Source: an uncultured Desulfobacteraceae bacterium (GTDB lineage: Bacteria > Desulfobacterota > Desulfobacteria > Desulfobacterales > Desulfatirhabdiaceae). From it: DNA of 42,297 bases. The notes beneath the pieces were generated by a model, which saw nothing but the letters and a program-made list of their open reading frames with translations, did not search any database and had not been told where the DNA came from. Shown here in pieces: positions 7,829-25,133 of this stretch (position 1 is its first letter; the number at the start of each line of letters is the position of its first letter). The stretch spans positions 1-42,297 of the forward strand of contig CAIMCT010000116.1 of assembly GCA_903839535.1 (NCBI GenBank), given 5' to 3'. Both the position numbers and the translations under genes were made by a program.

Positions 7829-10800
7829 TCATCCTTTTAAATATTCCGCGATCTTTTTCAGGCAGTCCTGCGGGTCAATCGGTTTGGAGATGTAATCATC
7901 GCATCCTGCAGAAAGAATCTTTTCCCGGTCGCCTTTCATAACCCGGGCGGTCATGGCGATCACCGGAATCCGACTCAGTTCCTTGTTATCTTTTAGATGC
8001 TGCACCACCGTGAAACCATCCATCTTCGGCAAGGCCATGTCAAGCAGAATCAGATCGGGTCCGATTTCCGCGGCCATCCTAAGCCCATCTTCACCGTCCA
8101 CCGCTTCCGTGATCCGGTATCGGTTCTGCAAAATAGCCTTGATGGTTGTCATGTTGTCTGGATTGTCCTCCACGACCAGGATGCTGGGGGGGCCTGCCGC
8201 TTTCGTCGTTGTCAGCGGCGCGCCTACTGAAGCATAAGACTGACGACAGACAATAGATGACGGTTTTTTTCTGTAATCCGTCATCCGCCATCTGTCATCA
8301 TTTTCAATAGATGCGGCGGCTTCCTTTTTGCTGTGGCTCTCATGAAGCCGTAAGGGTGTTTCTGAATGGGTCCCAATCACGGAGCTGATTTTCAATAACA
8401 AGCTTTCCTTGTCCACATCCCCCTTCTGAACAAGCTGCTGGATATTGTTAGCGCTGAGCCGCTTGAAATCCTCCGGAGTCAGGTCTTTGGCAGTGAGAAT
8501 CAAAACCGGTATTTTTTCTGTCGCCTGTCGGCTGCGAATCTTTTCCAGCACTTCAAAACCGTCGATCCCTGGCATCATCAAATCCAGAATAATGCCTTGG
8601 GGGATTGTATGGGCGACATAGTCAAAGGCTTCCTGCCCGCCTCTGGCCACATCGGCAATATATCCAGCAGATTCAAGAACCGCTTTGACCTGGATGATCG
8701 CCACTTCGTTGTCCTCAACCAGTAGAATCCTGGGTAGAATCTGGGGTAGAGCCGCCTGTTTTTCATATCCAGGGTGTTGAGCAAGAGTCTCGAGATCCAG
8801 CAGTATTCTCTTGATTTCTGCAAGCAGTGTCACCGAAGTAGCTGCGCTTTTCTCCAAGACGGAAAAGACGTTTCCGCTCAATTTGCGCCGGTCTTCTTCG
8901 GTCAAGTCCTTGGCCGTGACCACGATGACCGGCAGGTCTTTGGTCTCAGGGTTGCTGCGAATTCTCTCCAGCACGGCGAATCCGTCCATCTCGGGCATCA
9001 TCAAGTCCAAAACCAGCACATCGGGAACATGTTTTTCGATCAAACTTAGACAAACAGCGCCATCCTCCACTTCGATCAGATTCAGCCCCTCATCTTCAAT
9101 AATCCGTCCAATTCGCCTACGGTCCAGCTCACTGTCATCGACGATCATGACCGAGCTGGTTCCAGGCTTTCCGATCTTCTTGATCTCTGAGATGAGCTGT
9201 TCTTTTGACACTGGCTTGGTGACATAACCGATGGCGCCAAGGGCGAATCCGGTTTCCTTGCCCTCCGAGATGGATACGATAATGACCGGAATGTCTTTGG
9301 TCTCGGGGTTCTTCTTCAGGCCCTGCAGCACCTCCCAGCCGTCCATGTCCGGCATGATTATATCAAGGGTTACGGCGAATGGGCGTTCGCGCTCGGCGAG
9401 AATTAGCGCCTCGGCTCCGGATGTGGCAGTGAGCGTATTGTACCCCTCTTGGAGCAGGTAACGGGAAATCATCGCCGCCATATCCGGTTCATCGTCCACG
9501 ACGAGAATGGTCTTGCGTTCTGACTTTACTCCTAAAATTTGACGGATAACGATTGGTTCACAGACGGGCGCTTTCCCCTGCCATGCAACAGGTAGGGTCA
9601 ACGTAAATATGGAGCCAACTCCTTTTGAGCTTTGCACGGCGATGTCCCCGCCCAGCATCCTGGCGGCCTTGCTGGCGATGGTAAGGCCCAGCCCTGTCCC
9701 TTCATGCTTTCTCGCAGATGTTCCATCCACCTGCCGAAATTCGTCAAAGATACAGGGGAGATCGTTTTCCGCAACGCCAATACCGGTATCTGCAATCCGG
9801 ACAGAGAACTTTCCCTGATCCAACCGGACCGAAACAGTAACACTGCCCGCATCGGTAAATTTGACGGCATTGGCGATCAGGTTTTGCAGTATCTGAGATA
9901 CCCGTATCTCATCGCTTTCAAGCGACGGGATGTCTTCGGGGATATCCTGATGGAGTGCAATCTGCTTTTCCTCGGCCAGAGGTGCAATGCTTTCAACAAT
10001 ATCATCTATGGCCATGCGGAGGGAAAACGGCTTGGGGTTGACATCCATTCGGCCGGCCTCAATCTTGGACAGATCCAGAATGTCGTTGATCAGCGTGAGA
10101 AGATTCCTCCCGTTACGCTCGATAATCTCCAGATAGTTGACCTCTTCAGCGCTTAGCTTCGAACTGGCCTGCATCATCAGCACGCGAGAAAGTGCCATGA
10201 CGGAATTGAGCGGGGTCCGGAGTTCGTGACTCATGTTCGAAAGAAACTGGCTCTTCAGACGGTTGGCCTCTTCCACTGCCAACTGCTGTTGCTCCAGCTC
10301 CACATTCTGTTGTTGCAACTCCTCGGTCTGTCTCCGGAGTTCGATAGACTGAGCCGCCATTTCCTCCGATTGAGCCTGAATCTCCTCATTTTTAGCTTGC
10401 AGTTTCCGGTTAGCCTCTTCCGTCGCCAACCGACGACGATCTATCTCCACGTTCTGCAGCCGCAATTCTTCCGCCTGGACTTGCAGCTCTTTTGACTGTT
10501 CTGCAAGTTGCTCGTTTTGTTTGTCCAGTTTATAGGAATATTCACGGATACCTTCGAAAGCCAACATGCCGATGATGCCAACATTCAGACTCTTCCAGGA
10601 ATTGTTGATAATTTTCAGCGCTTCCGCTGAAAAGGCATTGAGCGATGCCAGGGAAATTACGGCAATTACTTTTTGGTTTTGCGTGATCGGGATGGTGATA
10701 ATTTCTTTTGGTTTGAAGTTCCCGGCTACGGTTGCAAAATCGAATATCGTGTCCTCGGGGATGGCGCTGATCCGGGTGATGGTCTTTCGTGTCAGTGCTG

Positions 10801-11854
10801 CACCGAATTCCCCTTCATGTATTGTTGCGGAAAATGGTCTCATTTTGTTCTGCGTCAATCCGATAGCGTAGTATGGCTCAAACAGCATTTTTTCTTCCTG
10901 CAGAAAATAGACAGCTCCGATATTGGACTCCGTTCTGGCTATCAGCTCCGGTAATAAGGCGCGGCAAAAAGCCATTAATTCTTCGTTCCCCAGCATGGTG
11001 TCGGCAATCTGGGCGGTGTTCTCCTTGCTCTGCCACTCCGTCTGAATGGTTTCAGCAAGGGCGTTGAATGCGGCGGAAAGCGTTCCAAATTCATTGACGG
11101 AAATATACCGGCTGCGAGCATTGAGATCGCCCTGCCGGTATTTCTCCGCGGCCGAAGTCAGCTCCAGTAGCGGGTCAATGATTCCTTTCGTCAGGAGGTA
11201 AATGATACCCATTGTCAGGAGAATAATGGTGCCTAAAAGGATCGCCAGTGAGACAAATATCGTTTCTTTTTTGGCTCGGGCATCCGCGTAAAATGCTTCG
11301 GATCTTTTTAAGGCGAAATCGCTGATATCCCGTATCTCATTCATGAGTTTTTCAGCCTGAGCGCCGCCCACTCCGGAGGAATACGTGCGCTCTGTCGCTT
11401 CTGCAATATTTCCGTCCCGCAGGATACGGATGGTCTCGGAGCGGATGGTTTTCCACTGCACCAAGGCATTCTGTACCTCATCAATATCCTGGCGAGGTCC
11501 CAGATAGCTTTTATACAGCAATTCGAACTGTCGGGCAGCGTTTACTTCGTATATGTCAATTTCCCGAAGAATGAATTCCATTTTCTGCTCACTATTCACC
11601 AGAATCAGGTCTTTCATCCCTCTATGTATATACAGGACACCAGCCTGAAGTTCGCCGATGGCTATGCGGACAGTAAACGGATGCTCGTACAAATCCTTGG
11701 TATTCTGCCATAAACTGTCCGATTGATACCAGGAAACCGCCCCGAGGAGCAACACCAACACAAGAATGGCGCTCAGGGCGATACGCAACTGTATGCCGAT
11801 TTTCAGATTCCTGATTCCCGTAAACCCCTGATCGAACTTACTCATCGTACTCAT
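7829..11854 (-). CDS. Membrane hybrid histidine kinase with HAMP, GAF and four receiver domains
   Basis: About 1341 residues. TM1 near 25-40, a periplasmic helical region, TM2 near 195-220, HAMP, a GAF-like domain (about 280-435), and a long Gln/Glu-rich coiled coil (about 440-530) with repeated EE(L/N)xxQ motifs. HisKA follows with His543 in SHELRTPLN, then HATPase (TGIGVAEND, GTGLGLTIA). Four receivers start near 780, 901, 1040 and 1223, each keeping its acceptor Asp (TLDIIMPDMDG, VLDLMMPEMDG, ILDLMMPGIDG, LLDMALPKMDG). The longest frame starts at 11872; ATG 11854 is chosen because AGGAG lies six bases upstream. The architecture resembles phosphorelay hubs with tandem receivers. It overlaps the next gene's longest frame by four bases and lies just downstream of a MITE relic. 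Confidence 0.85.
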   Translation of the reverse strand: MSTMSKFDQGFTGIRNLKIGIQLRIALSAILVLVLLLGAVSWYQSDSLWQNTKDLYEHPFTVRIAIGELQAGVLYIHRGMKDLILVNSEQKMEFILREIDIYEVNAARQFELLYKSYLGPRQDIDEVQNALVQWKTIRSETIRILRDGNIAEATERTYSSGVGGAQAEKLMNEIRDISDFALKRSEAFYADARAKKETIFVSLAILLGTIILLTMGIIYLLTKGIIDPLLELTSAAEKYRQGDLNARSRYISVNEFGTLSAAFNALAETIQTEWQSKENTAQIADTMLGNEELMAFCRALLPELIARTESNIGAVYFLQEEKMLFEPYYAIGLTQNKMRPFSATIHEGEFGAALTRKTITRISAIPEDTIFDFATVAGNFKPKEIITIPITQNQKVIAVISLASLNAFSAEALKIINNSWKSLNVGIIGMLAFEGIREYSYKLDKQNEQLAEQSKELQVQAEELRLQNVEIDRRRLATEEANRKLQAKNEEIQAQSEEMAAQSIELRRQTEELQQQNVELEQQQLAVEEANRLKSQFLSNMSHELRTPLNSVMALSRVLMMQASSKLSAEEVNYLEIIERNGRNLLTLINDILDLSKIEAGRMDVNPKPFSLRMAIDDIVESIAPLAEEKQIALHQDIPEDIPSLESDEIRVSQILQNLIANAVKFTDAGSVTVSVRLDQGKFSVRIADTGIGVAENDLPCIFDEFRQVDGTSARKHEGTGLGLTIASKAARMLGGDIAVQSSKGVGSIFTLTLPVAWQGKAPVCEPIVIRQILGVKSERKTILVVDDEPDMAAMISRYLLQEGYNTLTATSGAEALILAERERPFAVTLDIIMPDMDGWEVLQGLKKNPETKDIPVIIVSISEGKETGFALGAIGYVTKPVSKEQLISEIKKIGKPGTSSVMIVDDSELDRRRIGRIIEDEGLNLIEVEDGAVCLSLIEKHVPDVLVLDLMMPEMDGFAVLERIRSNPETKDLPVIVVTAKDLTEEDRRKLSGNVFSVLEKSAATSVTLLAEIKRILLDLETLAQHPGYEKQAALPQILPRILLVEDNEVAIIQVKAVLESAGYIADVARGGQEAFDYVAHTIPQGIILDLMMPGIDGFEVLEKIRSRQATEKIPVLILTAKDLTPEDFKRLSANNIQQLVQKGDVDKESLLLKISSVIGTHSETPLRLHESHSKKEAAASIENDDRWRMTDYRKKPSSIVCRQSYASVGAPLTTTKAAGPPSILVVEDNPDNMTTIKAILQNRYRITEAVDGEDGLRMAAEIGPDLILLDMALPKMDGFTVVQHLKDNKELSRIPVIAMTARVMKGDREKILSAGCDDYISKPIDPQDCLKKIAEYLKG

Positions 11855-11894
11855 ACATTTCTCCTTCGGCATCCTTCATATTATCCCGGAAGTG

Positions 11895-12055
11895 TACTGT
11901 CAACGGTCATAGTCTGCAATTTTGCCCCCCCCACCCCAACTCTCCCCGCTGAGGGATGGAGCTAATGGAAAGCGAAGGTAGAGCCGGCATCCTGCCGGCT
12001 GCAGCAGCTGGCAGGATGCCGGCTCTACTGCGAAAGATTATGTCCGTTCGCAGTA
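11895..12055. mobile_element. Diverged MITE copy carrying a nested palindrome
   Basis: The ends TACTGTCAACGG and GTTCGCAGTA match the terminal repeats of the 102-bp elements at 22834 and 24821, and internal pieces (AGTCTGCAATTTTG, CACCCCAACTCTCCCCGCTG, GATTATGTCCG) follow in the same order. A 19-bp-arm palindrome (11978-11996 and 12010-12028, arm GTAGAGCCGGCATCCTGCC) sits inside, giving 161 bp. TA follows the right end; the left flank is TG, so that duplication has decayed or never existed. It fills the gap between two kinase genes. Confidence 0.75.
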
Positions 12056-12064
12056 TAGTTGAAT

Positions 12065-15022
12065 TCAGCCCTTGAAATTGGCCGGTTGCGCTGTGTTTTT
12101 GGCATCATCCAGCACCTCTCTGACCTTAACTGCCAGGTGCTCCATTGAGAAAGGTTTCTGGATGAAGTGAATGCCTGGGTCAAGTATCCCATGATGGGCG
12201 ATGACGTTGGCCGTGTAACCGGAGATAAACAGACATTTCAGCCCCGGTTTGATGTCTCCGATCAAATTCGCCAAGTCCCGACCATTCATCTCCGGCATAA
12301 CAACATCGGTAATCAGCATATGTATCTCGGCAGCATGGTTTCTGGCTATGCGAAGCGCCTCGCCCGGCGTACTGGAGATCATCACAACATAGCCCAGTTG
12401 CTCCAGCATCTCCCGGCTCACGTCCAGAATCACCGGTTCGTCCTCCACCAGCAACATCGTCTCTCCATGACCTTTGGGTGTTTCCGCTGTTCTTTTGGCT
12501 GCTGGCTCCATGAATTCCCCCACGAACCGGGGCAGATATATCTTGAAGGTCGTCCCTTTGTCAGGTTCGCTGTAAACGTTTATGAAACCATTGTTTTGCT
12601 TGACAATACCATACAATGTGGCCAGTCCAAGTCCCGTGCCCTTTCCCATATCCTTGGTGGTGAAGAACGGTTCGAAGATGTGATCAAGAACTTCTTTGCT
12701 CATGCCGCAGCCATCATCGCTCACGGCGAGCATCACATATTCACCGCAAACAAAACCAAGGTGAAAAGCACAATAGGCCTCATCTATAGCGATGTTTTCC
12801 GTTTCAATGTCAACCTTACCCACCCCGGTGATGGCATCCCGAGCATTAACGCAAAGATTGGCCAGAATCTGGTCAATCTGGGTGGGGTCAATCTTTACTT
12901 GCCACAGACCCGTTTTCGGCTTCCAGACGACTTCAATATCTTCGCCGATCAAACGAAGCAACATCTTAAGCATGCCAGCCACGGCTTCGTTAACGTTTAT
13001 GATCTTGGGCGCTACGGTCTGCTTGCGGGCGAAGGCCAGCAGTTGCTTGGTGAGATCGGCGGAGCGGTAAGCGGAATCAACGATCGCCTTGAGGTTTGAA
13101 CGGATCGGCTCCAATGGGGACGACTTCATCATCGCCAGCTCTGCATGACCTATGATCGCTGAAAGCATATTGTTGAAATCGTGAGCTACTCCACCTGCCA
13201 GCCGCCCCACCGACTCCATTTTCTGGGCCTGCAGCAGTTGCACCTGGAGCGCATCCTTTTCCTCTTCCGCCCGCTTGCGCTCTGTGATATCACGGATTCT
13301 CTCAATTGCACCTACAATCTTGCCGGATTGATCGTGCAGGGGTGAGGCTTTGACAAACACCCATGCGCCTTTATTGTCGTAAAGGGCGTTGCAGAACACT
13401 TCAGCTTTGAGCGAGTCACCTTCACGAACGATGTTGGGATACCGGGCCATAATATCCTCATTGTTCATAAAGATTAAGTCCATCAACTGCGGTCTGGCCT
13501 CGCCATAAAACGGAATAGTGTATGCATAGTCGCCTTTGCCAATCATCTCTGCGGCCGGAACCCCTGTCATTTTCTCAATCTCTTTGTTCCATATAATGAC
13601 ACGCTTTTCCTTATCAATGGCCAGGGTGGCGTCCGGCAGAAAGTCAATGACATCCGCCAGTTGCCTCCGGTTCTCAAGCAGCGCCTCCTCAGCCCGTTTG
13701 CGCTCGGAGATATCCGTAAAGCTCAGTACCGCACCCAAGACTTTGCCGTCCTTGGTGATCGACATGCAGGAATACTCCACTGGAAAACTGCCGCCATCCT
13801 TGCGCCAGAGCACTTCACTCCCCGCTACATGGCTGCCCGTAGTATATGTGTAGGAAGCGGCCATAGGGCAGTCTTCAATCGGGTAGTTGGAGCCATCCTC
13901 ATGGGAGTGGTGGATCAGACCGTGCAAGTTTTGGTATAACATCTCCTCTTCGGCAAATCCAACCATGCGCAGGGCGGCGGGGTTGACGAAGGTTATCTGT
14001 CCGGTGGTATCGACCCCGAAGATACCATCTCCGACTGCATTTAGTAATAATCGTTTGCTCTCTTCACTTTGTCGCAAGACATCTCTGGATCGGTCCGTAA
14101 CATAGATAATGCCTGAAAAGACCATGATGAAAAAGCTTACAGAAAGCGTTGCCAGAATACCGATCAATCTGTATAGCCTGATACGATCTGTCGGAGTCAG
14201 AAGCACAATCGACCATCCGTCGCTGTCAATCACCTTCCTGGATACGAAAAAAACTTTTTCTTCCAAAGCGACTTCCGCGCCATCGTCAATTTCCTTTTTG
14301 ATGACGGCTTCGGAGATTTTGTCGCCGAATTGACGAGAAACAATCAATGCTTCCCGTACAGCTTTGTCTAAGGGCCAAAGACTATTTGCAACCATTGCTG
14401 GTGTGCTGGAAAGAAAAACAATGCCGTCACGGCTGATGAGAAAGCAAAAAGGGTATTTGCCGAAAAAGTTCTCAATCTCGTCAATATCCTTTTTCATCGT
14501 GACCACCCCAATCACCTCACCTGAATGATTCTGCACCGGGTAGCTTGCGTAAAAGCCCCTCTTTCCGGAAGTAATGCCCATCGCAAAATAACGACCGGAT
14601 CGCCCCTTGGCCGCTTGCTGAAAATATGGACGAAAACTATATGATTTCCCGACAAAGCTGTCCGGATATTTACGGTTGGAGGATGCCACAGTCATGCCAT
14701 CGGCATTCATCAGGTAGGAGGTGGATGTGAAGTTAAAACTGTATCTGTCTAACACACTATTGGCATTTTCGATATCTTGTTCCCCTTTAGACAGCAGCGC
14801 AGGTGCGATCCATGGAGAATCGGCTAATGCCTTAACGGCATTCTCAATCACATTTATTGTAGTAGAAACATAAACGGACATGGTGAATACGGAAGCCTGG
14901 CCTTCTCTGATGATTTCCTGCCTGGCTTTATCGCCAAGATAATCCGTTGCAAACCAGCCGGCAACAACAACGATCAGGATAAGAATCATTGATAATAAAT
15001 AAAATTTACTCCTCGCACCCAT
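12065..15022 (-). CDS. Membrane sensor histidine kinase: dCache-PAS-PAS-kinase-receiver
   Basis: A 985-residue sensor kinase. TM1 is near 7-27. The periplasmic part (about 35-285) has the double-Cache look, including SSNRKYPDSFVGKSYSFRPY and a GRSGRYFAMG strand. TM2 is near 290-310. Two PAS domains follow (about 320-440 and 445-575; both end in an ITERKRAEE-type linker), then HisKA with His614 in GGVAHDFNNML, HATPase (DDGCGM, GKGTGLGLA) and a C-terminal receiver with Asp906 in LITDVVMPEMNG. dCache domains usually bind small metabolites such as amino acids or organic acids; the ligand cannot be read here. ATG at 15022 is preceded by AGGAGA at about five bases. Its start overlaps the end of cheR by 17 bases, indicating coupling. 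Confidence 0.87.
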   Translation of the reverse strand: MGARSKFYLLSMILILIVVVAGWFATDYLGDKARQEIIREGQASVFTMSVYVSTTINVIENAVKALADSPWIAPALLSKGEQDIENANSVLDRYSFNFTSTSYLMNADGMTVASSNRKYPDSFVGKSYSFRPYFQQAAKGRSGRYFAMGITSGKRGFYASYPVQNHSGEVIGVVTMKKDIDEIENFFGKYPFCFLISRDGIVFLSSTPAMVANSLWPLDKAVREALIVSRQFGDKISEAVIKKEIDDGAEVALEEKVFFVSRKVIDSDGWSIVLLTPTDRIRLYRLIGILATLSVSFFIMVFSGIIYVTDRSRDVLRQSEESKRLLLNAVGDGIFGVDTTGQITFVNPAALRMVGFAEEEMLYQNLHGLIHHSHEDGSNYPIEDCPMAASYTYTTGSHVAGSEVLWRKDGGSFPVEYSCMSITKDGKVLGAVLSFTDISERKRAEEALLENRRQLADVIDFLPDATLAIDKEKRVIIWNKEIEKMTGVPAAEMIGKGDYAYTIPFYGEARPQLMDLIFMNNEDIMARYPNIVREGDSLKAEVFCNALYDNKGAWVFVKASPLHDQSGKIVGAIERIRDITERKRAEEEKDALQVQLLQAQKMESVGRLAGGVAHDFNNMLSAIIGHAELAMMKSSPLEPIRSNLKAIVDSAYRSADLTKQLLAFARKQTVAPKIINVNEAVAGMLKMLLRLIGEDIEVVWKPKTGLWQVKIDPTQIDQILANLCVNARDAITGVGKVDIETENIAIDEAYCAFHLGFVCGEYVMLAVSDDGCGMSKEVLDHIFEPFFTTKDMGKGTGLGLATLYGIVKQNNGFINVYSEPDKGTTFKIYLPRFVGEFMEPAAKRTAETPKGHGETMLLVEDEPVILDVSREMLEQLGYVVMISSTPGEALRIARNHAAEIHMLITDVVMPEMNGRDLANLIGDIKPGLKCLFISGYTANVIAHHGILDPGIHFIQKPFSMEHLAVKVREVLDDAKNTAQPANFKG

Positions 15023-16267: not shown

Positions 16268-16456
16268 GTTCACTCTCCTTTAATTGAAATGTCGAAATCC
16301 AAAACCATTCTTTCATGATGATCCGGTGTCTGAAAGAAAGTTACGATATAAGTCATTAACATGAGACAGCAGGTTATTTTTTTATTGATTGATTATCCAA
16401 AAAGTGAAAAAGGAATGAAATACATGTTCAATACACCATCCAAAGGAGGTTCAACC

Positions 16457-17163: not shown

Positions 17164-17455
17164 TAATAGCCTGCGAAGTACTTGGATTATTCCTTCTTGA
17201 CGCAGTTGGAACTGTTTGACTTTCATAACATACCGATTTAAAATCAAGCAAAGAAGTTGTGGCTTTATCGCGAAGGTATCGGGAACATAACGTCAAGATA
17301 GTGGGCATGAATACTTCAATTGCAAAAAATATTTTGATTCACTTGGGAACAATATAAATAAATTTTTCATCTTCAGTAATCAAAGGCAAAAAGAGAGATT
17401 CCATCAAGGTAGGATACACCATATATCCACCGTTATTTGTAGGAAGGAGAGCAAC

Positions 17456-17845
17456 ATGAAAAAAAGCATCGTTTTATCGGCACTGTTTTGTATGATCAGC
17501 GTATCTGTAGCCCTTGCAGATTCAACAGTGGGCGGGTCCGTGACAAACGAAATCCAAGGTGATAACATCACCAATTCGGCAACAGGAACAGAAAGTAAAG
17601 CAAATCTTGGGGCCGTGATCATGGAGGAATCAAAAGTCGGCGGGTCTGTCACGAACAGGGTCGTTGGAAAAACGATCACCAATACGGCTACTGGCACCCA
17701 AAGTGAGGCCAATCTGGGAGTTGTTAAAATACAGAACTCCGGGGTCGGCGGCTCAGTTGTAAACAATATTGAAGGAAAAGACATTACCAATTTGGCAATC
17801 GGAACAGGAAGTAAAGCAAACATTGGTAGCATTATAACGAAGTGA
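17456..17845 (+). CDS. Exported 36-residue-repeat protein, possible fibre subunit (paralogue 1)
   Basis: A 129-residue protein with a clear signal peptide (MKKSIVLSALFCMISVSVALA, cleavage after ALA). The mature chain is three 36-residue repeats and nothing else. Each reads about VGGSVTNxxxGxxITNxATGT then xSxANLGxV, and can be split into two 18-residue halves. Low complexity, regular spacing of Gly, Asn, Ser and Thr, and no cysteine in the mature part suggest a beta-solenoid or amyloid-like subunit; this is inference, and the repeat is not the classical CsgA/CsgB one. GGAAGGAG precedes the ATG by about six bases. The near-identical gene at 18127 and the CsgG-like exporter at 19117 are downstream. 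Not assigned to a named family. Confidence 0.8.
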   Translation: MKKSIVLSALFCMISVSVALADSTVGGSVTNEIQGDNITNSATGTESKANLGAVIMEESKVGGSVTNRVVGKTITNTATGTQSEANLGVVKIQNSGVGGSVVNNIEGKDITNLAIGTGSKANIGSIITK

Positions 17846-18126
17846 AATGAATTCTGAAAATCGGACAATGGCCCGACTCAGTGGAATAGATGATCTATCT
17901 GCCCCAAAGACAAGCAATCTTTTCTGGCCGAAACGATGATCAATGCACAATGTTTCAATTGTAAAACAGATTTTCTGTGTCTCATGGGAACAAATCAAAT
18001 ATATTTTTCATCTGTAACAATCAACGGTGAAAAGGAGGGATTCCAATAAGAACAGTTCATTATTGACAAACCACCATTTGCGCACCATTGACCACACTCA
18101 CCATTAACTACAAGAAGGAGAACATC
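17846..18126. promoter_or_regulatory. Duplicated leader region of the repeat-protein genes
   Basis: The stretch from about 17951 to 18052 (TTCAATTG, then ATGGGAACAA, ATTTTTCATCT, AATCAACGG, GATTCCA) matches about 17312-17406 upstream of the first paralogue block by block. Whole gene-plus-leader units were therefore duplicated. Both leaders are AT-rich and probably hold the promoter or 5' UTR, but I cannot assign -35/-10 boxes with confidence. A 20-base string at 17926-17945 also recurs, with one mismatch, at 81-100. Confidence 0.5.
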
Positions 18127-18516
18127 ATGAAAAAAAGCATCATTTTATCAGCACTGTTTTGTTTGATCAGCGTATCGGTAGCCCTTGCAGAATCAACAGT
18201 GGGAGGATCCGTAACAAACGAAGTCAAAGGTGATAACATCACCAATACGGCAACCGGAACAGAAAGTAAGGCAAATCTTGGGTCTGTGGACATGGATGGA
18301 TCAAAAGTCGGCGGATCTGTCACTAACAAGGTAACTGGTAAAACAATCACCAATGAGGCTACGGGCACCCAAAGTGAGGCCAATCTGGGAGCCGTTAAAA
18401 TGGAGAACTCCAAGGTCGGTGGCTCAGTTACAAACACAATCGAAGGAAAAAATCTTAGCAATACGGCTACGGGCACCAAAAGTGAAGCAAACATGGGTTC
18501 CGTTAAAATGAAGTGA
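18127..18516 (+). CDS. Exported 36-residue-repeat protein, possible fibre subunit (paralogue 2)
   Basis: 129 residues, the same length as the gene at 17456, with the same signal peptide and three 36-residue repeats. Repeat consensus: S(T/K)VGGSVTNxVxGxxITN followed by xATGTxSxANLGxVxM. Substitutions relative to paralogue 1 are mostly conservative, and the Gly, Asn and Thr framework is kept, which suggests selection on the fold. ATG 18127 follows AAGGAG by six bases; the in-frame start 39 bases upstream is disfavoured because the signal peptide begins here. A hairpin follows the stop (18537-18568). Functional inference as for its paralogue; it is also conceivable that one of the pair nucleates and the other elongates. 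Confidence 0.8.
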   Translation: MKKSIILSALFCLISVSVALAESTVGGSVTNEVKGDNITNTATGTESKANLGSVDMDGSKVGGSVTNKVTGKTITNEATGTQSEANLGAVKMENSKVGGSVTNTIEGKNLSNTATGTKSEANMGSVKMK

Positions 18517-18536
18517 AATAAACTCTGAAAACGTGA

Positions 18537-18568
18537 CAATAGCCCGGATCAGTGGATTCGGGCTATTG
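18537..18568 (+). terminator. Hairpin after second repeat-protein gene, possible attenuator
   Basis: The 10-base arms CAATAGCCCG (18537-18546) and CGGGCTATTG (18559-18568) pair perfectly around a 12-base loop. No T-run follows, so it is not a textbook terminator. It would suit an mRNA-stabilising or partial-termination element that keeps subunit mRNA more abundant than that of the downstream exporter genes (inference). A degraded version (CAATGGCCCGACTCAGTGGA) follows the first paralogue. Confidence 0.5.
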
Positions 18569-18678
18569 AACCCTGACTGGGCACTCAAAGTTTTCCCGGC
18601 AAGCAAATGGATACGTTGGAAGTGGCAGAAGGCGAAAAACAGTAGGGAAGACAGCAAACCCTTTATAGGAGGCATAAA

Positions 18679-19014
18679 ATGATGCATACCCAAAAAACAT
18701 ACATTTCAATACTGACGATCACCATGATATTGTTAGCTTGTGTGTGCTATGGAAAGGGCCCGGATGATGGCATGTCGATAGCTGGTGAATCCCTTTACGA
18801 ACGTGATAATGTCGATCTGGATGAAAATATCCCTTACATCATAATGAAAGCAAAAGCCCAATCCAAGCAGAAAAACAATTCCAACACAGGTTCAGGGGAT
18901 CAAGACGGCAGCATCGGCAGTGTGATTCTCGCTCCGGGCGCTACGATTAAAGGGGATGTCTATAACATTGATCTATCAAAGGGAAATAAAACGGCCATAG
19001 CGGTTGATAAGTGA
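18679..19014 (+). CDS. Small exported protein of the repeat-protein locus
   Basis: 111 residues with an N-terminal export signal; MILLAC could be a lipobox (LLA-Cys21), or cleavage could follow CYG. The middle is charged and Lys/Gln/Asn-rich. The C-terminal 35 residues (DGSIGSVILAPGATIKGD onward) carry a GSIGSV motif echoing the NLGSV and NIGSI ends of the 36-residue repeats next door. TAGGAGG lies six bases before the ATG. Position between the subunit genes and the CsgG-like gene suggests an accessory, chaperone or minor subunit role. I recognise no family. Confidence 0.72.
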   Translation: MMHTQKTYISILTITMILLACVCYGKGPDDGMSIAGESLYERDNVDLDENIPYIIMKAKAQSKQKNNSNTGSGDQDGSIGSVILAPGATIKGDVYNIDLSKGNKTAIAVDK

Positions 19015-19116
19015 CATACATGCCTTTTTGAAAGGGCGCATTAATAATTTCAATTATTATCGATAACTGTTGAAGGTTTATGTCGCAGTCTGCTATTAAC
19101 CATAGGAGGAATTACA

Positions 19117-20862
19117 ATGTTCATCAGCCATTCTCTTTTAACTACCTTAAAAAAGCTGAGTGTGTCGTGCGGTCTGATATCCATGCTTTTGTGGGTTTCG
19201 TGTGCATCCCTGGATCCCCGTAATGTTCAGCTTGATCTTCAGGAAGATTATCCGACAGCCAAGATCACAACACTTGATGATGCGCTGACGACGTTGGGCC
19301 GAATGACTGAAATTTATAATTCCGGACCGCTTCGAATTCAGTGTCAGCAGATTTCCGATCTTACAGGAACATCTACGTCTTCAGTAGGGAGCGAGCTGCC
19401 ACAGAGCGTCACTGAAATGCTAAAAAGCTCGCTGAATTCGATCGGGGGCAGGGTGACTTATATCCCTTATGATCCGTCATTCCTGGAAAATTCAAGAATA
19501 ACGGGATATTCAAAATTTGAAAAAAAACTCATTCCGGATATCATGGTCAGTGGCGGTATAACCGAATATGACAGAGCACTTGAAACTCGAGGCAAGAGTC
19601 TGAAAGCATCTATTGAAGGCACGCCATTATCCGATGCTGCAGGGACTGTTGGAATTAATTTAGACAATGATGAGAAAACCAGCGCAGCTAGCATCACGGT
19701 GGATTTTAACCTGATTGATTTTCAGACCCTGTCCGGTTTGTCTAGAATGCAAACAGTCAACACCATCAAGGTTTACAAGGGACAGAATGAAAAATCGCTT
19801 GGAATCACGATTTTTGGACCGACGTTTGGTGTCAAAGGCACCATCGCGAAACATCAGGGAAGACATGCTGCTGTCCGTCTATTGACTCATCTGAGTACGC
19901 TTCAGATTGTTGGCAAATATCTGAGATTGCCCTATTGGCGATTGCTGCCAGAGGGAAAACCCGATCAAACGGTTCTGGATTCGGTTCAAACCGATTTCGC
20001 TCTCATGAATGCACAACAGCGAATTGCGGCGATACAACGCATGCTTTATCTTCATGGCCATGAAGTGATGATAACGGGTCAAATTGATGAACAAACTCAG
20101 GCGGCATTACGAAAAGTGGGCGCCCAGGCATCTGCTGATTTTGATACCTACCTTAGCCTGTATATCTCTGTTCCATTAGATTCAAATCGCTACTTGGCAA
20201 TCAGGGAGGAACCACAGAAATCTTCAAATCAGGCCGCATTATCGGAAGCCTCCATGCCTGAAAAACCTGTAGCAGCTATAGCCCAGGGCACCCAATATAT
20301 TCCATCCGCCACCACTCAAAAAAAGACGATCCCTTTGGCGGCAGTAGGGCCTCCAGCAATAAAAAAGGTGGAAACAGCAGGAAACTATGACAAAGTAGTA
20401 TCCATGCTGACCGCATTAGGCCTGAATTCAACACCAGCCGATCTGTCGCTGTGGACAGACCAAAACCAGTTTCTAATTGGCGACCGAATCCACTATTACT
20501 TCAAAGCCGACAAGGACTGTCATGTTGTTATCATTGGTGTGACTACAGATAGAAAAGTGGTTCAATTATTCCCCAATCGCTATCAGACCACACCATTGGT
20601 TTCTGCAGGCCAAACTTATGTTATTGTTGATGATAGCGCTGATATGGCATTGGAAGTCGCCGGACCTGCTGGCCAGGAAGAGGTGATCGCCTTTATTTCA
20701 GATAAGCCATTCGAGCTGTTTCCAACAGATTTCAGCCATCAGCCTTTTATTGAACTTTCAAACAGTAGTGATGGATTAAACAAAATAAGTAGTCGCGTTC
20801 AGATGGCGCAACAATTGAATATTTCCCAAAAACGGATTCGATATCAAATAAAAGGCAGGTAG
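19117..20862 (+). CDS. CsgG-like outer-membrane lipoprotein with peptidoglycan-binding-like and DUF4384-like domains
   Basis: A 581-residue protein. The N-terminus has a signal peptide ending in LLWVSC, a slightly atypical lipobox with Trp at -3. Residues about 55-275 look like CsgG/HfaB: a conserved-strand region with IPDIMVSGGITEYDRA, then VDFNLIDFQTLSG and GRHAAVRLLTHLSTLQIVGKY. CsgG forms the outer-membrane pore that exports curli subunits. Residues about 290-345 resemble a peptidoglycan-binding repeat (QQRIAAIQRMLYLHGH...TGQIDEQTQAALRKVG). After a Pro/Ala/Thr-rich linker, residues about 430-560 resemble DUF4384 (GDRIHYYFKADKDCHVVIIG, VVQLFPNRYQT). AGGAGG precedes the ATG. The domain fusion and the subunit-like neighbours argue for a secretion or anchoring role. 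Assignments are by eye. Confidence 0.75.
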   Translation: MFISHSLLTTLKKLSVSCGLISMLLWVSCASLDPRNVQLDLQEDYPTAKITTLDDALTTLGRMTEIYNSGPLRIQCQQISDLTGTSTSSVGSELPQSVTEMLKSSLNSIGGRVTYIPYDPSFLENSRITGYSKFEKKLIPDIMVSGGITEYDRALETRGKSLKASIEGTPLSDAAGTVGINLDNDEKTSAASITVDFNLIDFQTLSGLSRMQTVNTIKVYKGQNEKSLGITIFGPTFGVKGTIAKHQGRHAAVRLLTHLSTLQIVGKYLRLPYWRLLPEGKPDQTVLDSVQTDFALMNAQQRIAAIQRMLYLHGHEVMITGQIDEQTQAALRKVGAQASADFDTYLSLYISVPLDSNRYLAIREEPQKSSNQAALSEASMPEKPVAAIAQGTQYIPSATTQKKTIPLAAVGPPAIKKVETAGNYDKVVSMLTALGLNSTPADLSLWTDQNQFLIGDRIHYYFKADKDCHVVIIGVTTDRKVVQLFPNRYQTTPLVSAGQTYVIVDDSADMALEVAGPAGQEEVIAFISDKPFELFPTDFSHQPFIELSNSSDGLNKISSRVQMAQQLNISQKRIRYQIKGR

Positions 20863-20876
20863 ATTCGTTTTTCACA

Positions 20877-20910
20877 TTTACTGTGAAAATACTTTTTGAA
20901 CCGCGAATGA
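20877..20910. repeat. Short dispersed repeat, also at 38977-39006
   Basis: The string TTTACTGTGAAAATACTTTT, followed by GAACCGCGAA, recurs almost unchanged at 38977-39006 (TTTACCGTGAAAATACTTTT, then AAACCACGAA). Both copies lie in gaps beside genes on different strands. A small dispersed intergenic repeat of unknown role. Confidence 0.6.
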
Positions 20911-21039
20911 ACATGAATTAATGCGAATTAAAAAATTCTTGATCCCACGCTCCGGCGAGTGGAAAACTGCCAGTTCATTTTCATTTGCGGGTGACGAAGC
21001 ATTGTGTGCAATGACCTTTTTATTAGACAGGAGGACATT

Positions 21040-21957
21040 ATGAAATATGTGATGAATTTCGGAGTGTTGTTAATGCTGATTTTGCCATTATCAGCCTTTG
21101 GTCAGAGCTGCGACGATGCTGATACAGAACTCGGAGCCGCTATGTCTGCTCCAACACCATCGGTGCAAATCGATAAAATTGTGCAGTTGCTTCAACGTTG
21201 CCCAGATTACTCAAAAGGTATGAATAACCTAGCCGTTATTTTAGAGGAGCAGGGCAAGCTAAAAGATGCAACCGAGCTTTATCGCAGAGCCATTTATACA
21301 GATCAGCAGTTTCCCTATCCATATATCGGACTGGGAGACATTTATTTTCAGCAGAAGCAGTACAATCTATCAGCAGCCATGTACAATGAAGCCTTGTTGT
21401 TGTATAAATCCCCCGCTGTCCAGGATAAATATTCAGATTTGAAATTGGATATTCCCCGAATCAAGGAACGGTTTGCGAAATGTCAGGCCAATTTTACGGT
21501 AGCAAGCCGAAGCCTGAAAGTGGTCAGCTCGGATGTGATTGAGTCTCAACTGAAAGATGCACCTACGGAACTGACTCGTGGTATTCAGTATAAGCCCAAA
21601 ACACGTCCCAAAATTGCGTTGTCGATTAATTTCGAATTTAACAAAGCAGAAATTTCCAAAGCCTCTTTTGCACAAATGGAAGAGATCGGAAAAGCATTAC
21701 GTTCAGATACACTCAAAACCTGCGCCATATCTATCGAGGGCCATGCTGATGCCACGGGCGGTGATGCACACAATCAAAGCCTGTCTGAAAAACGGTCAGC
21801 AAGCATCAAACATTTTCTTTCTACCCGCTATGGAATTGATCCCAAACGACTACAAACCGTCGGCTATGGCAAAAGCCGGCCGGTTGATTCCAATGACACA
21901 GAAGCCGGTCGGGCGGCGAATCGACGGGTAGAACTGGTGAACACGGGTACATTGTAA
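21040..21957 (+). CDS. TPR and OmpA-like peptidoglycan-associated protein
   Basis: 305 residues from ATG 21040, which has AGGAGG five bases upstream and begins the signal peptide (MKYVMNFGVLLMLILPLSAFG). The longer GTG frame at 21004 would bury the signal. About 45-130 hold two tetratricopeptide-like repeats (GMNNLAVILEEQGKLKDATE, YIGLGDIYFQQKQYNLSAAM). About 190-303 are an OmpA C-terminal domain, with NFEFNKAEI, EGHADATGGDAHNQSLSEKR and VGYGKSRP, and the TD/R residues that grip diaminopimelate. It is the last gene of the repeat-protein locus and may anchor the exporter to the cell wall. The gap to the gene before it is 177 bases, so it may have its own promoter. Confidence 0.85.
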   Translation: MKYVMNFGVLLMLILPLSAFGQSCDDADTELGAAMSAPTPSVQIDKIVQLLQRCPDYSKGMNNLAVILEEQGKLKDATELYRRAIYTDQQFPYPYIGLGDIYFQQKQYNLSAAMYNEALLLYKSPAVQDKYSDLKLDIPRIKERFAKCQANFTVASRSLKVVSSDVIESQLKDAPTELTRGIQYKPKTRPKIALSINFEFNKAEISKASFAQMEEIGKALRSDTLKTCAISIEGHADATGGDAHNQSLSEKRSASIKHFLSTRYGIDPKRLQTVGYGKSRPVDSNDTEAGRAANRRVELVNTGTL

Positions 21958-22430: not shown

Positions 22431-23125
22431 CATGTCAAATCAAAATCATCCCGTAAGAGACAGTCAGATCAAAGTTGATCCCATAAAATCTATCACGGAC
22501 ATCAAGTCCATCAAAAAGCTCCTGAAGGATAACATATGGATTATGCTTTATTTATCATCTGAGTAAATACAAATTTGCGAGCATCTGACCCAGTGAATAT
22601 TATGGCCCAACAGGTTCAAGATTTAAAGCCTGGGGATGACCTGGTCTTGAGTGAACAAAAAACAGGAAAAGAAAGAAGGATGACCATGAATGCTGTTTGT
22701 GTCGCCGCCATAGAAAATCTTCTGGCATCCCAAGTATTTTTAGGAGATGATCCAGTTTTTAAGTCCAGAAAAGGCGGAAAGCTCCGCGCCCAATCAGTTC
22801 ATCGTTTAGTGACGGGATGGTGCAGGCAGATTATACTGCCAACTGTCACAATCTGCACTTTTGGACCCCCACCCCAACCCTCCCCCGCTGGGAGAGGGAG
22901 CATAAGGAAAGTGCAGATTATGCCCGTTTGCAGTATAATTTGACAGGGAATTACGGATCACATAGTCTCCGGAAAACCTGGGGGTATATTGGTTACATTC
23001 ATAGACTGGTACACACAAAGAAGAATGCAGAGATGAGCATAATAAGTCAGGCATTACGCCCACCACATCATACCCGCTTGAACCATGCCATTACCATTCA
23101 TTTTTATCAGAGCTTCCGGAAATAA
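22431..23125 (+). pseudogene. Tyrosine recombinase (phage-type integrase) relic, MITE-disrupted
   Basis: Starting at ATG 22431 after AAGGGGG, the first frame encodes MSNQNHPVRDSQIK through KKLLKDN. A one-base shift near 22535 leads into DYALFII, then a TGA where Gly is expected, then VNTNLRASD and DLVLSEQKTGKERRMT. The body is cut at 22834 by a 102-bp MITE; after it comes NYGSHSLRKTWGY, carrying the catalytic H-x-L-R box. Excising element plus one TA gives CRQINLTGNYGSHSLRKT in one frame. No convincing catalytic Tyr is left at the end. A core-only integrase of the short-chain XerC/D kind, inactive now through at least three lesions. Confidence 0.85.
22834..22935. mobile_element. 102-bp MITE inserted in the integrase relic
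   Basis: Bounded by TACTGC...GCAGTA, with imperfect terminal repeats of about 29 bases (AATCTGCACTTT is the shared inner block) and TA duplications at 22832-22833 and 22936-22937. It is the exact reverse complement, base for base by eye, of the element at 24821-24922. The centre is a G/C-rich imperfect stem (CTCCCCCGCTGGGAGAGGG). It has no coding capacity. TA target duplication is the habit of IS630/Tc1/mariner-type transposases, so such an enzyme elsewhere in the genome probably moves it (inference). Confidence 0.9.
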
Positions 23126-23573
23126 AACCCGCTGCTGGTTATGATGGCTTCCGCTGGAAAGATGCGCCTTAGCCATTCCAGGTATCTTCGGAAACTCCGC
23201 CAGTCTTTCGATCCCGGTCAGACGTAGCGCATCTTATTTTTCTGATTGATTGACAGCCTGTTAAAACTTTGGGATGATTCACAAGTAACCAATCATCAGA
23301 AACATGTCAATGTATTTCAGAAGTGATACACAGAATATATTTGCAACTATCTGAAAATTAATTAATAGTAGATATATTGAGGGGGGTTTGTCTTGGCTGC
23401 CTGTATGGTTTCGTCACGGTTACTGGTCCGGGATTGATCGTAATAAAATACCCTGCCCACATCATCAGTTTCATTTTACTTGAGCTTGCGAGGCGTGACT
23501 TGACCAGTGCCGATACTTCCTGGCCCTATTAATCGTTCGACATCGTAGATGCCCCATTAACGAGGAGATACCC
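23126..23573. other. Gap with no recognisable gene
   Basis: About 450 bases between the integrase relic and the YdhR-like gene. No convincing open frame, hairpin or repeat shared with the rest of the window is seen. It may be decayed mobile DNA. Confidence 0.4.
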
Positions 23574-23888
23574 ATGATTACAGTAATTGTTAAATTCAAA
23601 CTCTCAGAAGCGATCACAATTCAGCAGGCTCGGGAGATTTTCTTGAGTACAGCGCCAAAATATCGAGGTATGCCAGGATTAATTCGAAAATACTATTTTC
23701 TTGATACGGACGGCATTACAGCCGGAGGAATCTATCTATGGGAATCGCGCGAAGATGCTGGTGTGCTGTATACCAAAGAATGGAAAGCGTTTGTATACGG
23801 TAAATATGGCTCCGACCCTGAATTGACTTATCTTGATACTCCAGTTGTTGTGGACAATGTCTCGAATGAAATCATATCGAACCAATGA
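23574..23888 (+). CDS. YdhR-like dimeric alpha/beta-barrel (putative monooxygenase) protein
   Basis: 104 residues with the small ABM/YdhR fold pattern: MITVIVKFKLSE as the first strand, a helix with AREIFLSTAPKYRGMPGLIRKYYF, then GGIYLWESREDAGVLYT and W-KAFVYGKYG. Relatives are annotated as putative monooxygenases, but most lack shown activity. ATG follows GAGGAGA by about six bases. It is intact although surrounded by broken genes, and has no operon partner. Confidence 0.78.
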   Translation: MITVIVKFKLSEAITIQQAREIFLSTAPKYRGMPGLIRKYYFLDTDGITAGGIYLWESREDAGVLYTKEWKAFVYGKYGSDPELTYLDTPVVVDNVSNEIISNQ

Positions 23889-24136
23889 AGTTTGAACCAA
23901 CCTGGCTCCATGAATTATCAACAAAAACAGAATCAATGACGTTTACCGCCATACAAACTCTGCTGACGCGGACGTTAACTTGGACGCGAAAGAAATAATA
24001 GGATTCCTGGTGAAAATGAATATCGTAATCCATTTTCAAAGCGGAATTCAGAAAAACTCATGATGATAAATATGAACTTTCATCCATGCCAGAATCAAGC
24101 AGTTATTAAAAAAACCAGGTAAAATCAGATGATTTC

Positions 24137-24426
24137 ATGAAAATATCAATCCTGTTATATATCTCTGTCATAATCGCAATCACTTCGATACCGCCGTTAT
24201 CCGCAGAGAGCATTCCAAAGATCGGGAAAACCTGTCCTCAAGGCTATCACATTGACGGGGTCAGCGGATATTGTATCCCATTCGATGCCAAGCATGCTCC
24301 ACTGATGCTCCCCCAAATTGGCAATACTAATGCCCTACCGGATATCACATTGATGGTGCGAGTGGATATTGTACCCCATTCAGTAACAGCAAACAAAAAG
24401 GTCTGATTCCAATAGCATCCCTTTGA
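24137..24426 (+). pseudogene. Small exported Cys-repeat protein, frameshifted
   Basis: A signal peptide (MKISILLYISVIIAITSIPPLSA region) is followed by a short repeat: IGKTCPQGYHIDGVSGYCIPF, then after a spacer QIGNT and, in another frame, CPTGYHIDGASGYCTPF ending SNSKQKGLIPIASL. Comparing the two repeats, the bases AA at 24329-24330 are an insertion that throws the second repeat out of frame; without them a protein of about 95 residues ends at 24426. The uninterrupted frame as it stands stops at 24406. A sequencing error is possible. Function unknown. Confidence 0.65.
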
Positions 24427-24586
24427 ACAATGTGGCGTTGTGGTTGAAGGAAAGATTGAGATGTTCATTGGTGATGTGCGCCGGATTTTAGAGGCTATGG
24501 ACACATATTTAATTCCAGCCGGCGTGATACACGGATGGAAAACCTTTGATGTTCCGACAAGAATTTTGGATGTTTCAGCGAAATAA
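24416..24586 (+). pseudogene. Cupin-domain fragment, 5' end missing
   Basis: The frame reads HPFEQCGVVVEGKIEMFIGD, later DTYLIPAGVIHGWKTFD, and ends at TAA 24586. The HxxEQxGxVxEGxxE strand and PAGVxHG motif are the two cupin metal-binding boxes. A stop lies directly upstream in frame at 24413, and the usual N-terminal part is gone, so this is a deletion product overlapping the end of the small exported gene. It is joined to the preceding relic at about 24413. Confidence 0.7.
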
Positions 24587-24631
24587 AGAACATTAACAAT
24601 GGGAAATTATGTTAATTCGCATTTGATCATG

Positions 24632-24650
24632 GGTGAAACCGTGTTTCACC
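24632..24650. repeat. Small perfect hairpin before the disrupted unknown gene
   Basis: GGTGAAAC at 24632-24639 pairs with GTTTCACC at 24643-24650 around a three-base loop. It ends 10 bases before ATG 24661, so it could mask the start region of that gene. Confidence 0.4.
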
Positions 24651-24660
24651 GGCTTGTAGT

Positions 24661-25133
24661 ATGAAAACCACAAAATCCGGTAGAACCAGCATTATTGAAA
24701 CCGGCAATCACATTGCACAAGCCGCTCACAGTCGGAAAGAGCGCGGTGATGCGCTGGCCGATCTGATGCGCAAAAGCGCCGATCAGCAAACTCAGTGGGC
24801 GGCCTTTGCCGACCAAACTATACTGCAAACGGGCATAATCTGCACTTTCCTTATGCTCCCTCTCCCAGCGGGGGAGGGTTGGGGTGGGGGTCCAAAAGTG
24901 CAGATTGTGACAGTTGGCAGTATATTCTATGGTCTCCTGAAAAGCTGAAGTCGCTCGCAAATATCTGGCCTGAACTGGCCACACATAAACTCTCGCTTGG
25001 TGATACCACCATCAAGGATGTGGCTGAATACTACGCCCAGATGGAATGCGAGGTTGAGATACTTACCGGTGATATGGGGCTGAAAGCGTATGAACCGTTA
25101 GTCCCCGCAGAAAAACCTCGACGGAGGCAGTAG
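24661..25133 (+). pseudogene. Unknown 122-residue protein gene interrupted by a MITE
   Basis: The frame MKTTKSGRTSIIETGNHI to AFADQT is open to 24820. It is broken by the 102-bp element at 24821-24922. Removing 24821-24924 (element plus one TA) leaves 369 bases, 123 codons with a single stop, and continues as ILWSPEKLKSLANIWPELATH and AEYYAQMECEVEILTGDMG to the TAG at 25131-25133. The restored protein is soluble, charged and helical, with a basic C-terminus (EKPRRRQ). I do not recognise the family. Location among integrase debris suggests cargo of a mobile element. Confidence 0.75.
24821..24922. mobile_element. 102-bp MITE, inverted identical copy
   Basis: This is the reverse complement, by eye at all 102 positions, of the element at 22834-22935. 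TA flanks it at 24819-24820 and 24923-24924. Identity of non-coding DNA implies very recent insertion or gene conversion. The pair is inverted and about 1.9 kb apart, so recombination between them could flip 22936-24820. Confidence 0.9.

Follow-up and report, generated by a model that had tools for sequence, protein, structure and literature searches.

Gene content of the locus

The window, by which we mean the whole 42,297-nucleotide stretch analysed here, comes from a contig of an uncultured Desulfobacteraceae bacterium, and the locus of interest within it, at 17456-21957, comprises five genes: two for small exported repeat proteins (subunits 1 and 2), one for a further small exported protein (ORF3), one for a CsgG-like lipoprotein with peptidoglycan-binding-like and DUF4384 domains (the exporter), and one for a protein with tetratricopeptide repeats (TPRs) and an OmpA domain. 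A first-pass annotation of this DNA had described the same set as lying on one strand and had read it as a curli-like export system with unfamiliar subunits; all five genes are indeed on the + strand, and each of the proteins was found to be as described.

Subunit 1 (17456-17845) and subunit 2 (18127-18516; an alternative TTG start at 18088 would add 13 residues) are each 129 residues long in translation and consist of a signal peptide followed by three 36-residue units, of which STVGGSVTNEVKGDNITNTATGTESKANLGSVDMDG is an example, the last unit being one residue short. The units occupy 17522-17629, 17630-17737 and 17738-17842 in subunit 1, and 18193-18300, 18301-18408 and 18409-18513 in subunit 2; the two proteins are 77% identical. 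Mean unit-unit identity is 0.58 (range 0.54-0.61) in subunit 1 and 0.67 in subunit 2, against maxima of 0.20 and 0.22, respectively, in 2000 shuffles of the mature protein. A tandem-repeat finder detected no tandem repeat at the DNA level, so the 36-residue repeat is a feature of the protein.

The leaders of the two subunit genes (17296-17455 and 17967-18126) have in common the stretches tgggaacaa, atttttcatct and, near the start, ggaga, from which it seems that the duplication took in upstream regulatory DNA. Long open frames of 154 and 143 residues also run opposite both repeat genes on the - strand (17404-17868 and 18108-18539), as they do at some other loci, and are probably a by-product of the codon pattern of the repeats.

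The exporter has a predicted CsgG fold

The exporter gene (19117-20862, + strand) encodes 581 residues. Its match to the Pfam CsgG model (PF03783) lies below threshold, at 18.4 bits (E=0.0014) where the cut-off is 20.8. Most other members of the family escape the model as well, with 9 of 38 matched at E<=0.01 (best E=2.9e-4). Run over the whole genome from which the window comes, the same model gave no match at E<=0.001; it matched in 4 of 14 control genomes. A structure prediction with no CsgG fold in 19117-20862 would have counted against the first-pass annotation; the predicted structure has that fold. An AlphaFold2 model built with 38 members of the family, 37 of which came from the scan described below, has a mean predicted local distance difference test score (pLDDT) of 75.2 and a predicted template-modelling score (pTM) of 0.58, with pLDDT of 80-97 in the blocks 51-120, 141-150, 191-220 and 251-350, and below 50 in a linker at 384-424. 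Searched against solved structures with Foldseek, where matches were counted at E<=0.001, the model returned 25 matches, all at E<=5.2e-6 and all to chains of CsgG or curli complexes, the best at E=3.9e-11. VIA-align gave Z scores of 13.8-16.0 for eight CsgG or curli-complex entries, with FlgT as the next fold at 10.9; the best entry was 7brm_A (Z 16.0, residues 43-283, 214 aligned, root-mean-square deviation (rmsd) 6.7), and 6l7a_A scored 15.9 (residues 46-285, 213 aligned, rmsd 6.1). In hhalign, the exporter family profile and E. coli CsgG can be aligned over 169 columns (probability 71.8, E=3.5e-5).

The predicted fold spans residues 43-285 (19243-19971) and includes two long beta hairpins, at residues 142-201 and 206-246, that correspond in position to the membrane-inserting hairpins of CsgG. 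Cys29 (19201-19203) is probably the lipidated cysteine: it is invariant in 11 aligned sequences and at least 90% conserved in 38, the lipobox itself being judged by eye. These results support reading the 581-residue protein as a lipoprotein-like CsgG relative with a predicted CsgG fold.

Two further domains follow. The peptidoglycan-binding-like domain (residues 301-333, 20017-20115) gives a weak Pfam match to PG_binding_1 (E=0.14), which 8 of the 38 family members match at E<=0.01, and through its middle part the family profile reaches solved cell-wall hydrolases and peptidoglycan-binding proteins, the best at E=0.0024 and the others at E>=0.03. The DUF4384 domain (residues 452-531, 20470-20709) matches Pfam at E=5.8e-20.

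The subunits are predicted beta-solenoids that lack the curlin repeat

The first-pass annotation expected a beta-solenoid from structure prediction of the subunits, and the AlphaFold2 model of subunit 2, built with 30 related segments, agrees: it is all beta, has a pLDDT of 87.9 and a pTM of 0.80 and reaches at least 90 at 96 of its 129 residues, and the window repeat protein is accordingly predicted to be a beta-solenoid. The nearest solved structures are weak matches in both Foldseek and VIA-align, mostly of the solenoid kind. FapC (9u4u_A) heads the Foldseek list at E=0.017 and TM 0.16, and a bactofilin gives the best VIA-align match (Z 5.8, rmsd 1.8, 61 residues); a VIA-align Z below 8 may mean merely a common arrangement, and the absence of a fold from that list was not taken as evidence. 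A search of the subunit profile against Protein Data Bank (PDB) sequences gave two matches at E<=10, neither significant and neither to FapC; a match of the profile to chain 9xfv_A, annotated 'bacteria pilus (like)', was set aside as not significant (E=2), and a PDB search with one divergent subunit returned no match.

Nor do the family libraries name these proteins. Neither window subunit reaches the cut-off of any Pfam or NCBIfam model (the NCBIfam scan covered the window proteins). A weak NCBIfam match of subunit 2 to ExtJ (E=0.0027) was dropped after a family search that was negative in the window and Geomonas genomes and below cut-off in Caulobacter. Ten repeat proteins from other loci gave scattered Pfam matches; those to ATP_synth_reg (L068), Pentapeptide (L093) and Staphostatin_B (L061) pass the cut-off as sums over several stretches, no single stretch passing, and we ascribe them to the repeats. 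A beta-helical shape would agree with the match to Pentapeptide, which shows no membership of that family.

The claim that the subunits do not carry the usual CsgA repeat, and that CsgE and CsgF are missing, was examined across whole genomes and holds: the curlin repeat (X6QXGX2NX10; PF07012, E<=0.001), CsgE (PF10627) and CsgF (PF10614) were each found in 0 of 13 exporter genomes, that of the window included, while the E. coli control was matched by all three models. The minimal curli motif occurs in 2 of 62 subunits, against four occurrences in CsgA, and the spacing Q-X10-Q occurs 28 times in 581 subunit units, against 7 times in CsgA; the subunit profile shows no similarity to CsgA (hhalign E=0.35). 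The subunits are rich in Ala, Asn and Gly, and a simple signal-peptide pattern fits 55 of the 62 that have two or more units. Units are spaced by 36 residues in 361 of 509 cases and by 35 in 88, and the largest subunits, in other loci, reach 37-38 units.

Two observations concern repeats found elsewhere. Two more three-repeat subunit genes stand together on a different contig of the window genome (11299-11709 and 11976-12380 of contig C350, within a locus at 8962-12380), with signal peptides of the same type as those of the window subunits; upstream of this pair are a caspase-domain (Peptidase_C14) gene and a PEGA/Lcl_C gene, and no exporter was found on that contig. At a further locus (L160, 8900-9847), a FecR-domain protein bears two 36-residue repeats at its C-terminus, so that the repeat can also form part of a protein with a different domain.

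Repeat protein, ORF3 and exporter co-occur across several phyla

A scan with the exporter alone, taking one genome per species of 84,980, yielded 90 confirmed places, of which 80 loci were kept; as labelled in database records, they span Desulfobacterota, Nitrospirota, Gammaproteobacteria (Methylococcaceae and Chromatiaceae), Nitrosomonas, a Campylobacterota metagenome-assembled genome (MAG) and Lentisphaerota. Among the carriers are the cultured Desulfobulbus elongatus DSM 2908, Desulfobulbus alkaliphilus DSM 24258 and Geomonas sp. Red32. Upstream genes were counted in 66 of these loci; the other 14 of the 80 have less than 1.5 kb of upstream sequence and were left out. A repeat open reading frame (ORF) lies within 2.5 kb upstream of the exporter and on the same strand in 47 of the 66, the co-occurrence that the first-pass annotation had proposed to look for in other genomes. 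With a repeat ORF anywhere in the locus the count is 53/66; a relative of ORF3 is near the exporter in 53/66, and both are present in 47/66. All 73 repeat ORFs are on the strand of the exporter, and the repeat and ORF3 models gave 0 matches on reversed ORFs. Repeat protein, ORF3 and exporter are thus a conserved same-strand gene set found across several phyla.

The association was also evaluated at the level of whole genomes, in three panels, with one-sided Fisher tests that are uncorrected for kinship. Among 94 relatives (panel 1), 8 of 8 repeat genomes carry the exporter, with 11 exporter genomes in all (1.5e-9); 31 of the 94 had matched, but in 20 the match was confined to the C-terminal DUF4384 part and these were set aside. 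Among 296 genomes of the phylum (panel 2), 6 of 6 repeat genomes carry it and there are 7 exporter genomes (7.9e-12), 12 having matched and 5 weak matches being left out (four with E from 2.6e-6 to 2.1e-4 in the peptidoglycan-binding region, and G305 with E=2.6e-4 at positions 13-135). Among 159 genomes of the class of G332 (panel 3), the figures are 23 of 24 repeat genomes and 29 exporter genomes (3.5e-21). The repeat model used, A2, has 10 rows, includes window subunit 1 twice (its match to subunit 1, at E=7.9e-41, is thus partly one to itself) and was built partly from four panel-1 genomes (G000, G020, G055 and G078), so that 4 of the 8 positives in panel 1 are independent; no genome of panel 3 contributed to it. 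Repeat proteins in many genomes without any such exporter would have spoken against the first-pass annotation, and such genomes proved rare: over the three panels the exporter is present in 34 of 35 repeat-positive genomes, G462 being the exception.

In all five Lentisphaerota loci (L115-L119) two exporter-like genes stand in tandem, and L115-L118 have differently patterned repetitive exported proteins nearby. In one genus of the class of G332, six genomes (G457, G460 and G463-G466) have 20 to 38 repeat places each, some in open frames of more than 1,300 residues, and in three of the six (G464, G465 and G466) the exporter is matched twice. G462 belongs to this genus too, with 14 repeat places and no exporter match.

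Eyelet loop and subunit class

In E. coli CsgG, the loop that follows a conserved TG is 15 residues long and contains the constriction residues Tyr and Phe. By alignment with E. coli CsgG, the predicted eyelet loop of the window exporter is residues 84-94 (19366-19398), 11 residues without an aromatic one, and the loop is 10 residues long in 73 of the 81 exporters aligned, making 10-11 in 74/81; these alignment-based lengths supersede an earlier motif-based look that had located the loop in 60/81. Aromatic residues occur in the loop of 15/81 exporters, 13 of which are Desulfobulbus or Desulfobulbaceae as labelled in database records. The 52 exporters with a classable subunit (29 of the 81 were left out) divide as follows: aromatic loops go with NxxN-type subunits in 13/13 and non-aromatic loops with NxAxG-type subunits in 37/39 (p=1.7e-10), the classes having been set by motif counts chosen after viewing the sequences. 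The aromatic-loop group is probably one lineage, so the association may reflect shared ancestry rather than co-adaptation.

ORF3, the TPR-OmpA protein and the genomic setting

ORF3 (18679-19014, + strand, 111 residues) is the third small exported protein of the first-pass annotation, and its assignment is supported by relatives near exporters and by their alignment. Of the small partners of the exporter it is the most constant. Neither Pfam nor NCBIfam assigns it to a family at E<=1. Its conserved part is a C-terminal segment of the SIGSVILAPGATIKGDVYNID type, and by eye the segment GSVILAPGATIKGDVYNID resembles the junction of two repeat units, from which ORF3 could cap or nucleate the subunits; a role as nucleator, cap or adaptor is possible.

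The last gene (21040-21957, + strand; an alternative GTG start at 21004 would add 12 residues) encodes 305 residues with TPRs and an OmpA domain at 21631-21924 (Pfam E=9e-21), and the protein is probably a peptidoglycan anchor. The layout of the window differs from that of most exporter loci: 9 of the 80 have an exporter with a fused DUF4384, and 4 of these 9, against 0 of the 71 others, have an OmpA gene no more than 1.5 kb downstream (9 of the 71 have less than 1.5 kb of downstream sequence). The four loci with DUF4384 and OmpA belong to Methylococcaceae and Nitrosomonas MAGs. In a tree of 38 exporters the DUF4384 exporters do not form one group (three changes are needed) and the window exporter is on a long branch of its own, so a single inheritance of the common layout is not established. 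The neighbours that recur in the 80 loci, mostly downstream of the exporter, are an LPP20-type gene (40 loci), a protein of about 100 residues (28), a DUF2807-type protein (27) and a protein of about 200 residues (22), single members of the clusters having been scanned in Pfam.

To the left, the locus is flanked by a RidA-like gene at 16361 (Pfam). To the right, an integrase-like remnant lies at 22575 (Phage_integrase E=3.6e-4, below the cut-off), and within 22575-24948 there is a pair of 146-nucleotide inverted repeats (22828-22973 and 24783-24928, 88% complementary) with a shorter hairpin inside each arm; just downstream of the locus, this pair looks like a small dispersed repeat element. 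The locus and the DNA to its right (window segment 16001-24000) have a G+C of 0.41-0.44, compared with 0.46-0.52 in most other 2-kb blocks (one other block is at 0.42). The locus is patchy at the genus level, the CsgG part of the exporter being found in 0 of 6 other genomes of the genus, and a single exporter was found in the window genome. Low G+C together with patchy presence in the genus suggests that the locus could come from elsewhere.

A proposed CsgG-family system with its own subunits

We interpret the locus as encoding a type VIII-like system of the CsgG family that secretes and assembles a subunit family of its own, a reading to which we assign a probability of roughly 0.7. Best read as distinct from curli by its peptidoglycan-binding-like domain, shortened eyelet loop and own predicted beta-solenoid subunits, the gene set probably serves to make a surface fibre or coat. 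On the points tested, the interpretation offered by the first-pass annotation is supported; its proposed product, an extracellular fibre or surface layer, is an inference.

A mechanism can be sketched from these parts. The subunits, with their apparent signal peptides, would reach the periplasm via Sec and would pass unfolded through an oligomeric outer-membrane pore made of the 581-residue protein. On the surface they would fold, each 36-residue repeat adding one more layer to a stacked solenoid, and the subunits might then link up by their ends to give a fibre or mat. ORF3 may nucleate, cap or guide the subunits in place of CsgB, CsgE and CsgF, and the peptidoglycan-binding-like part of the exporter, with the neighbouring OmpA protein, would fasten the pore to the wall and thereby keep the fibre on the cell. 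The fuller proposal, of a distinct CsgG-dependent surface-fibre lineage that is neither curli nor Fap, spread over several phyla, with a wall-tied pore, ORF3 in the accessory roles and an eyelet matched to subunit class, is more tentative, and we put it slightly short of an even chance.

Several findings weigh against this interpretation. No repeat match was found in 13 of the 66 loci; by eye, five of these (L082, L107, L115, L116 and L117) have divergent repetitive exported proteins upstream and L118 has one downstream, but six (L051, L052, L058, L071, L076 and L097) have no repetitive exported protein upstream (L119 was left out). In the panels, the exporter occurs without a detected repeat in 3/11, 1/7 and 6/29 exporter genomes, respectively, and G462, a draft of 93% completeness, has the repeats and no detected exporter. 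The exporter model is moderate overall, its hairpin stretches 151-190 and 221-250 reach a pLDDT of only 64-75, and the CsgG superpositions have rmsd values of 5.0-6.7. Repeat sequences readily yield confident solenoid models, so the subunit model alone proves little, and its matches to amyloid structures are weak, that to CsgA (E=0.11, Z 4.1, rmsd 8.9) as well as that to FapC, so that an amyloid nature does not follow from them. No equivalent of CsgE or CsgF was identified in the 13 exporter genomes.

The alternative that survives best, though we think it unlikely, is a non-fibrous surface anchor of the kind proposed for HfaA, HfaB and HfaD, in which a CsgG-like pore displays short solenoid adhesins that hold polysaccharide or another matrix. 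The accessible text on Caulobacter describes HfaB as CsgG-like and as required for the placement of HfaA and HfaD (PMC6707917), and the N-terminal part of our exporter (residues 47-112) gives a weak match to the NCBIfam HfaB model (E=5.5e-4). The window subunits have only three repeats, and the DUF2807-type cluster, a putative adhesin head judged from the one member scanned, lies near the exporter in 27/80 loci. The HfaB score, however, at 19.2 bits, is far under the cut-off of 300, and subunits with as many as 37-38 units look more like those of a fibre or a large coat.

Less probable still is a periplasmic or cell-envelope scaffold, in which the lipoprotein would bind peptidoglycan and organise solenoid proteins between the outer membrane and the wall with no export at all. 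The peptidoglycan-binding-like domain and the TPR-OmpA partner do suggest the periplasmic side, and the best VIA-align match of the subunit is a filament-forming beta-helix; yet the CsgG match of the exporter covers the region of the transmembrane-barrel hairpins, modelled with moderate confidence, and a pure scaffold would have no need of it. An ordinary curli system with a diverged CsgA, suggested by the CsgG-family exporter and by exported, repetitive subunits in which Ala, Asn and Gly are plentiful, is very improbable given the missing curlin repeat, CsgE and CsgF, the scarcity of the minimal curli motif, the lack of profile similarity to CsgA and the longer repeat period.

As a CsgG-family secretion system with its own subunits, the locus would have wider meaning. 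CsgG channels have been studied as a secretion route for amyloid subunits and are used as nanopores; an exporter lineage with another constriction loop, a wall-binding part and solenoid subunits would widen the range of CsgG substrates and put natural pores with different eyelets on offer. Since loop type and subunit class vary together, natural variants could reveal how the pore recognises its substrate. The subunits would be beta-solenoids without a name in the family libraries searched, and the system a candidate matrix or attachment fibre, which annotation may miss, in sulfate reducers, nitrospiras and methanotrophs.

Comparison with known systems

Among the literature matches listed, judged by titles and abstract openings and with most subscription papers and all preprints outside the scope, there was no description of this system, and the accessible text of PMC10192328 holds nothing bearing on these repeats. 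A tandem riboswitch for glycine and cyclic di-GMP has been linked with a CsgG gene, according to the available part of PMC9481103. Control of this kind was looked for here and set aside: with Rfam at its gathering threshold the window showed no RNA family, and the 33 loci scanned of the 80 gave only two tRNAs and one tmRNA and no riboswitch. In the part of a 2012 survey that was accessible, a single curli system is given among Deltaproteobacteria, in Desulfovibrionales (PMC3521004), and a 2025 review, as far as its accessible text goes, also places curli or Fap operons in Desulfobacterota and Nitrospirota and sets as a condition that curlin-type repeats lie no more than 5000 bp from a further curli gene (PMC12822426). 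Judged by the curlin features that we tested, the present loci would probably fall outside that criterion.

The holdfast anchor HfaA/HfaB/HfaD of Caulobacter resembles our locus in having a CsgG-like exporter beside surface proteins, substrates that depend on HfaB in the text available to us (PMC6707917). The comparison rests on HfaB, whose model the window exporter matches far below the cut-off.

Bactofilins, the best VIA-align match of the subunit model, are like the subunits in a beta-helix, which stacks into filaments. They are cytoplasmic cytoskeletal proteins, whereas the window subunits have a signal peptide and a neighbouring gene for an outer-membrane exporter.

Fap of Pseudomonas uses FapF, not a CsgG-type pore. 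A tentative likeness to our system lies in FapC, the top, if weak, Foldseek match of the subunit model, which is a solenoid of three stacked imperfect repeats as described in the accessible part of the review (PMC12822426); it is unlike in that the PDB matches of the subunit profile do not include FapC.

Curli is the closest point of reference. The present system is like it in the predicted CsgG fold of the exporter, the outer-membrane lipoprotein signature and the small exported repeat subunits encoded in the same gene cluster. It is unlike curli in that no curlin repeat, CsgE or CsgF was found in the 13 exporter genomes; in its exporter, which has an additional peptidoglycan-binding-like domain and, in the window, DUF4384, together with an eyelet loop of 10-11 residues in most members against 15 in E. 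coli CsgG; and in its subunits, which repeat with a period of 36 residues, against about 22 for the curlin repeat.

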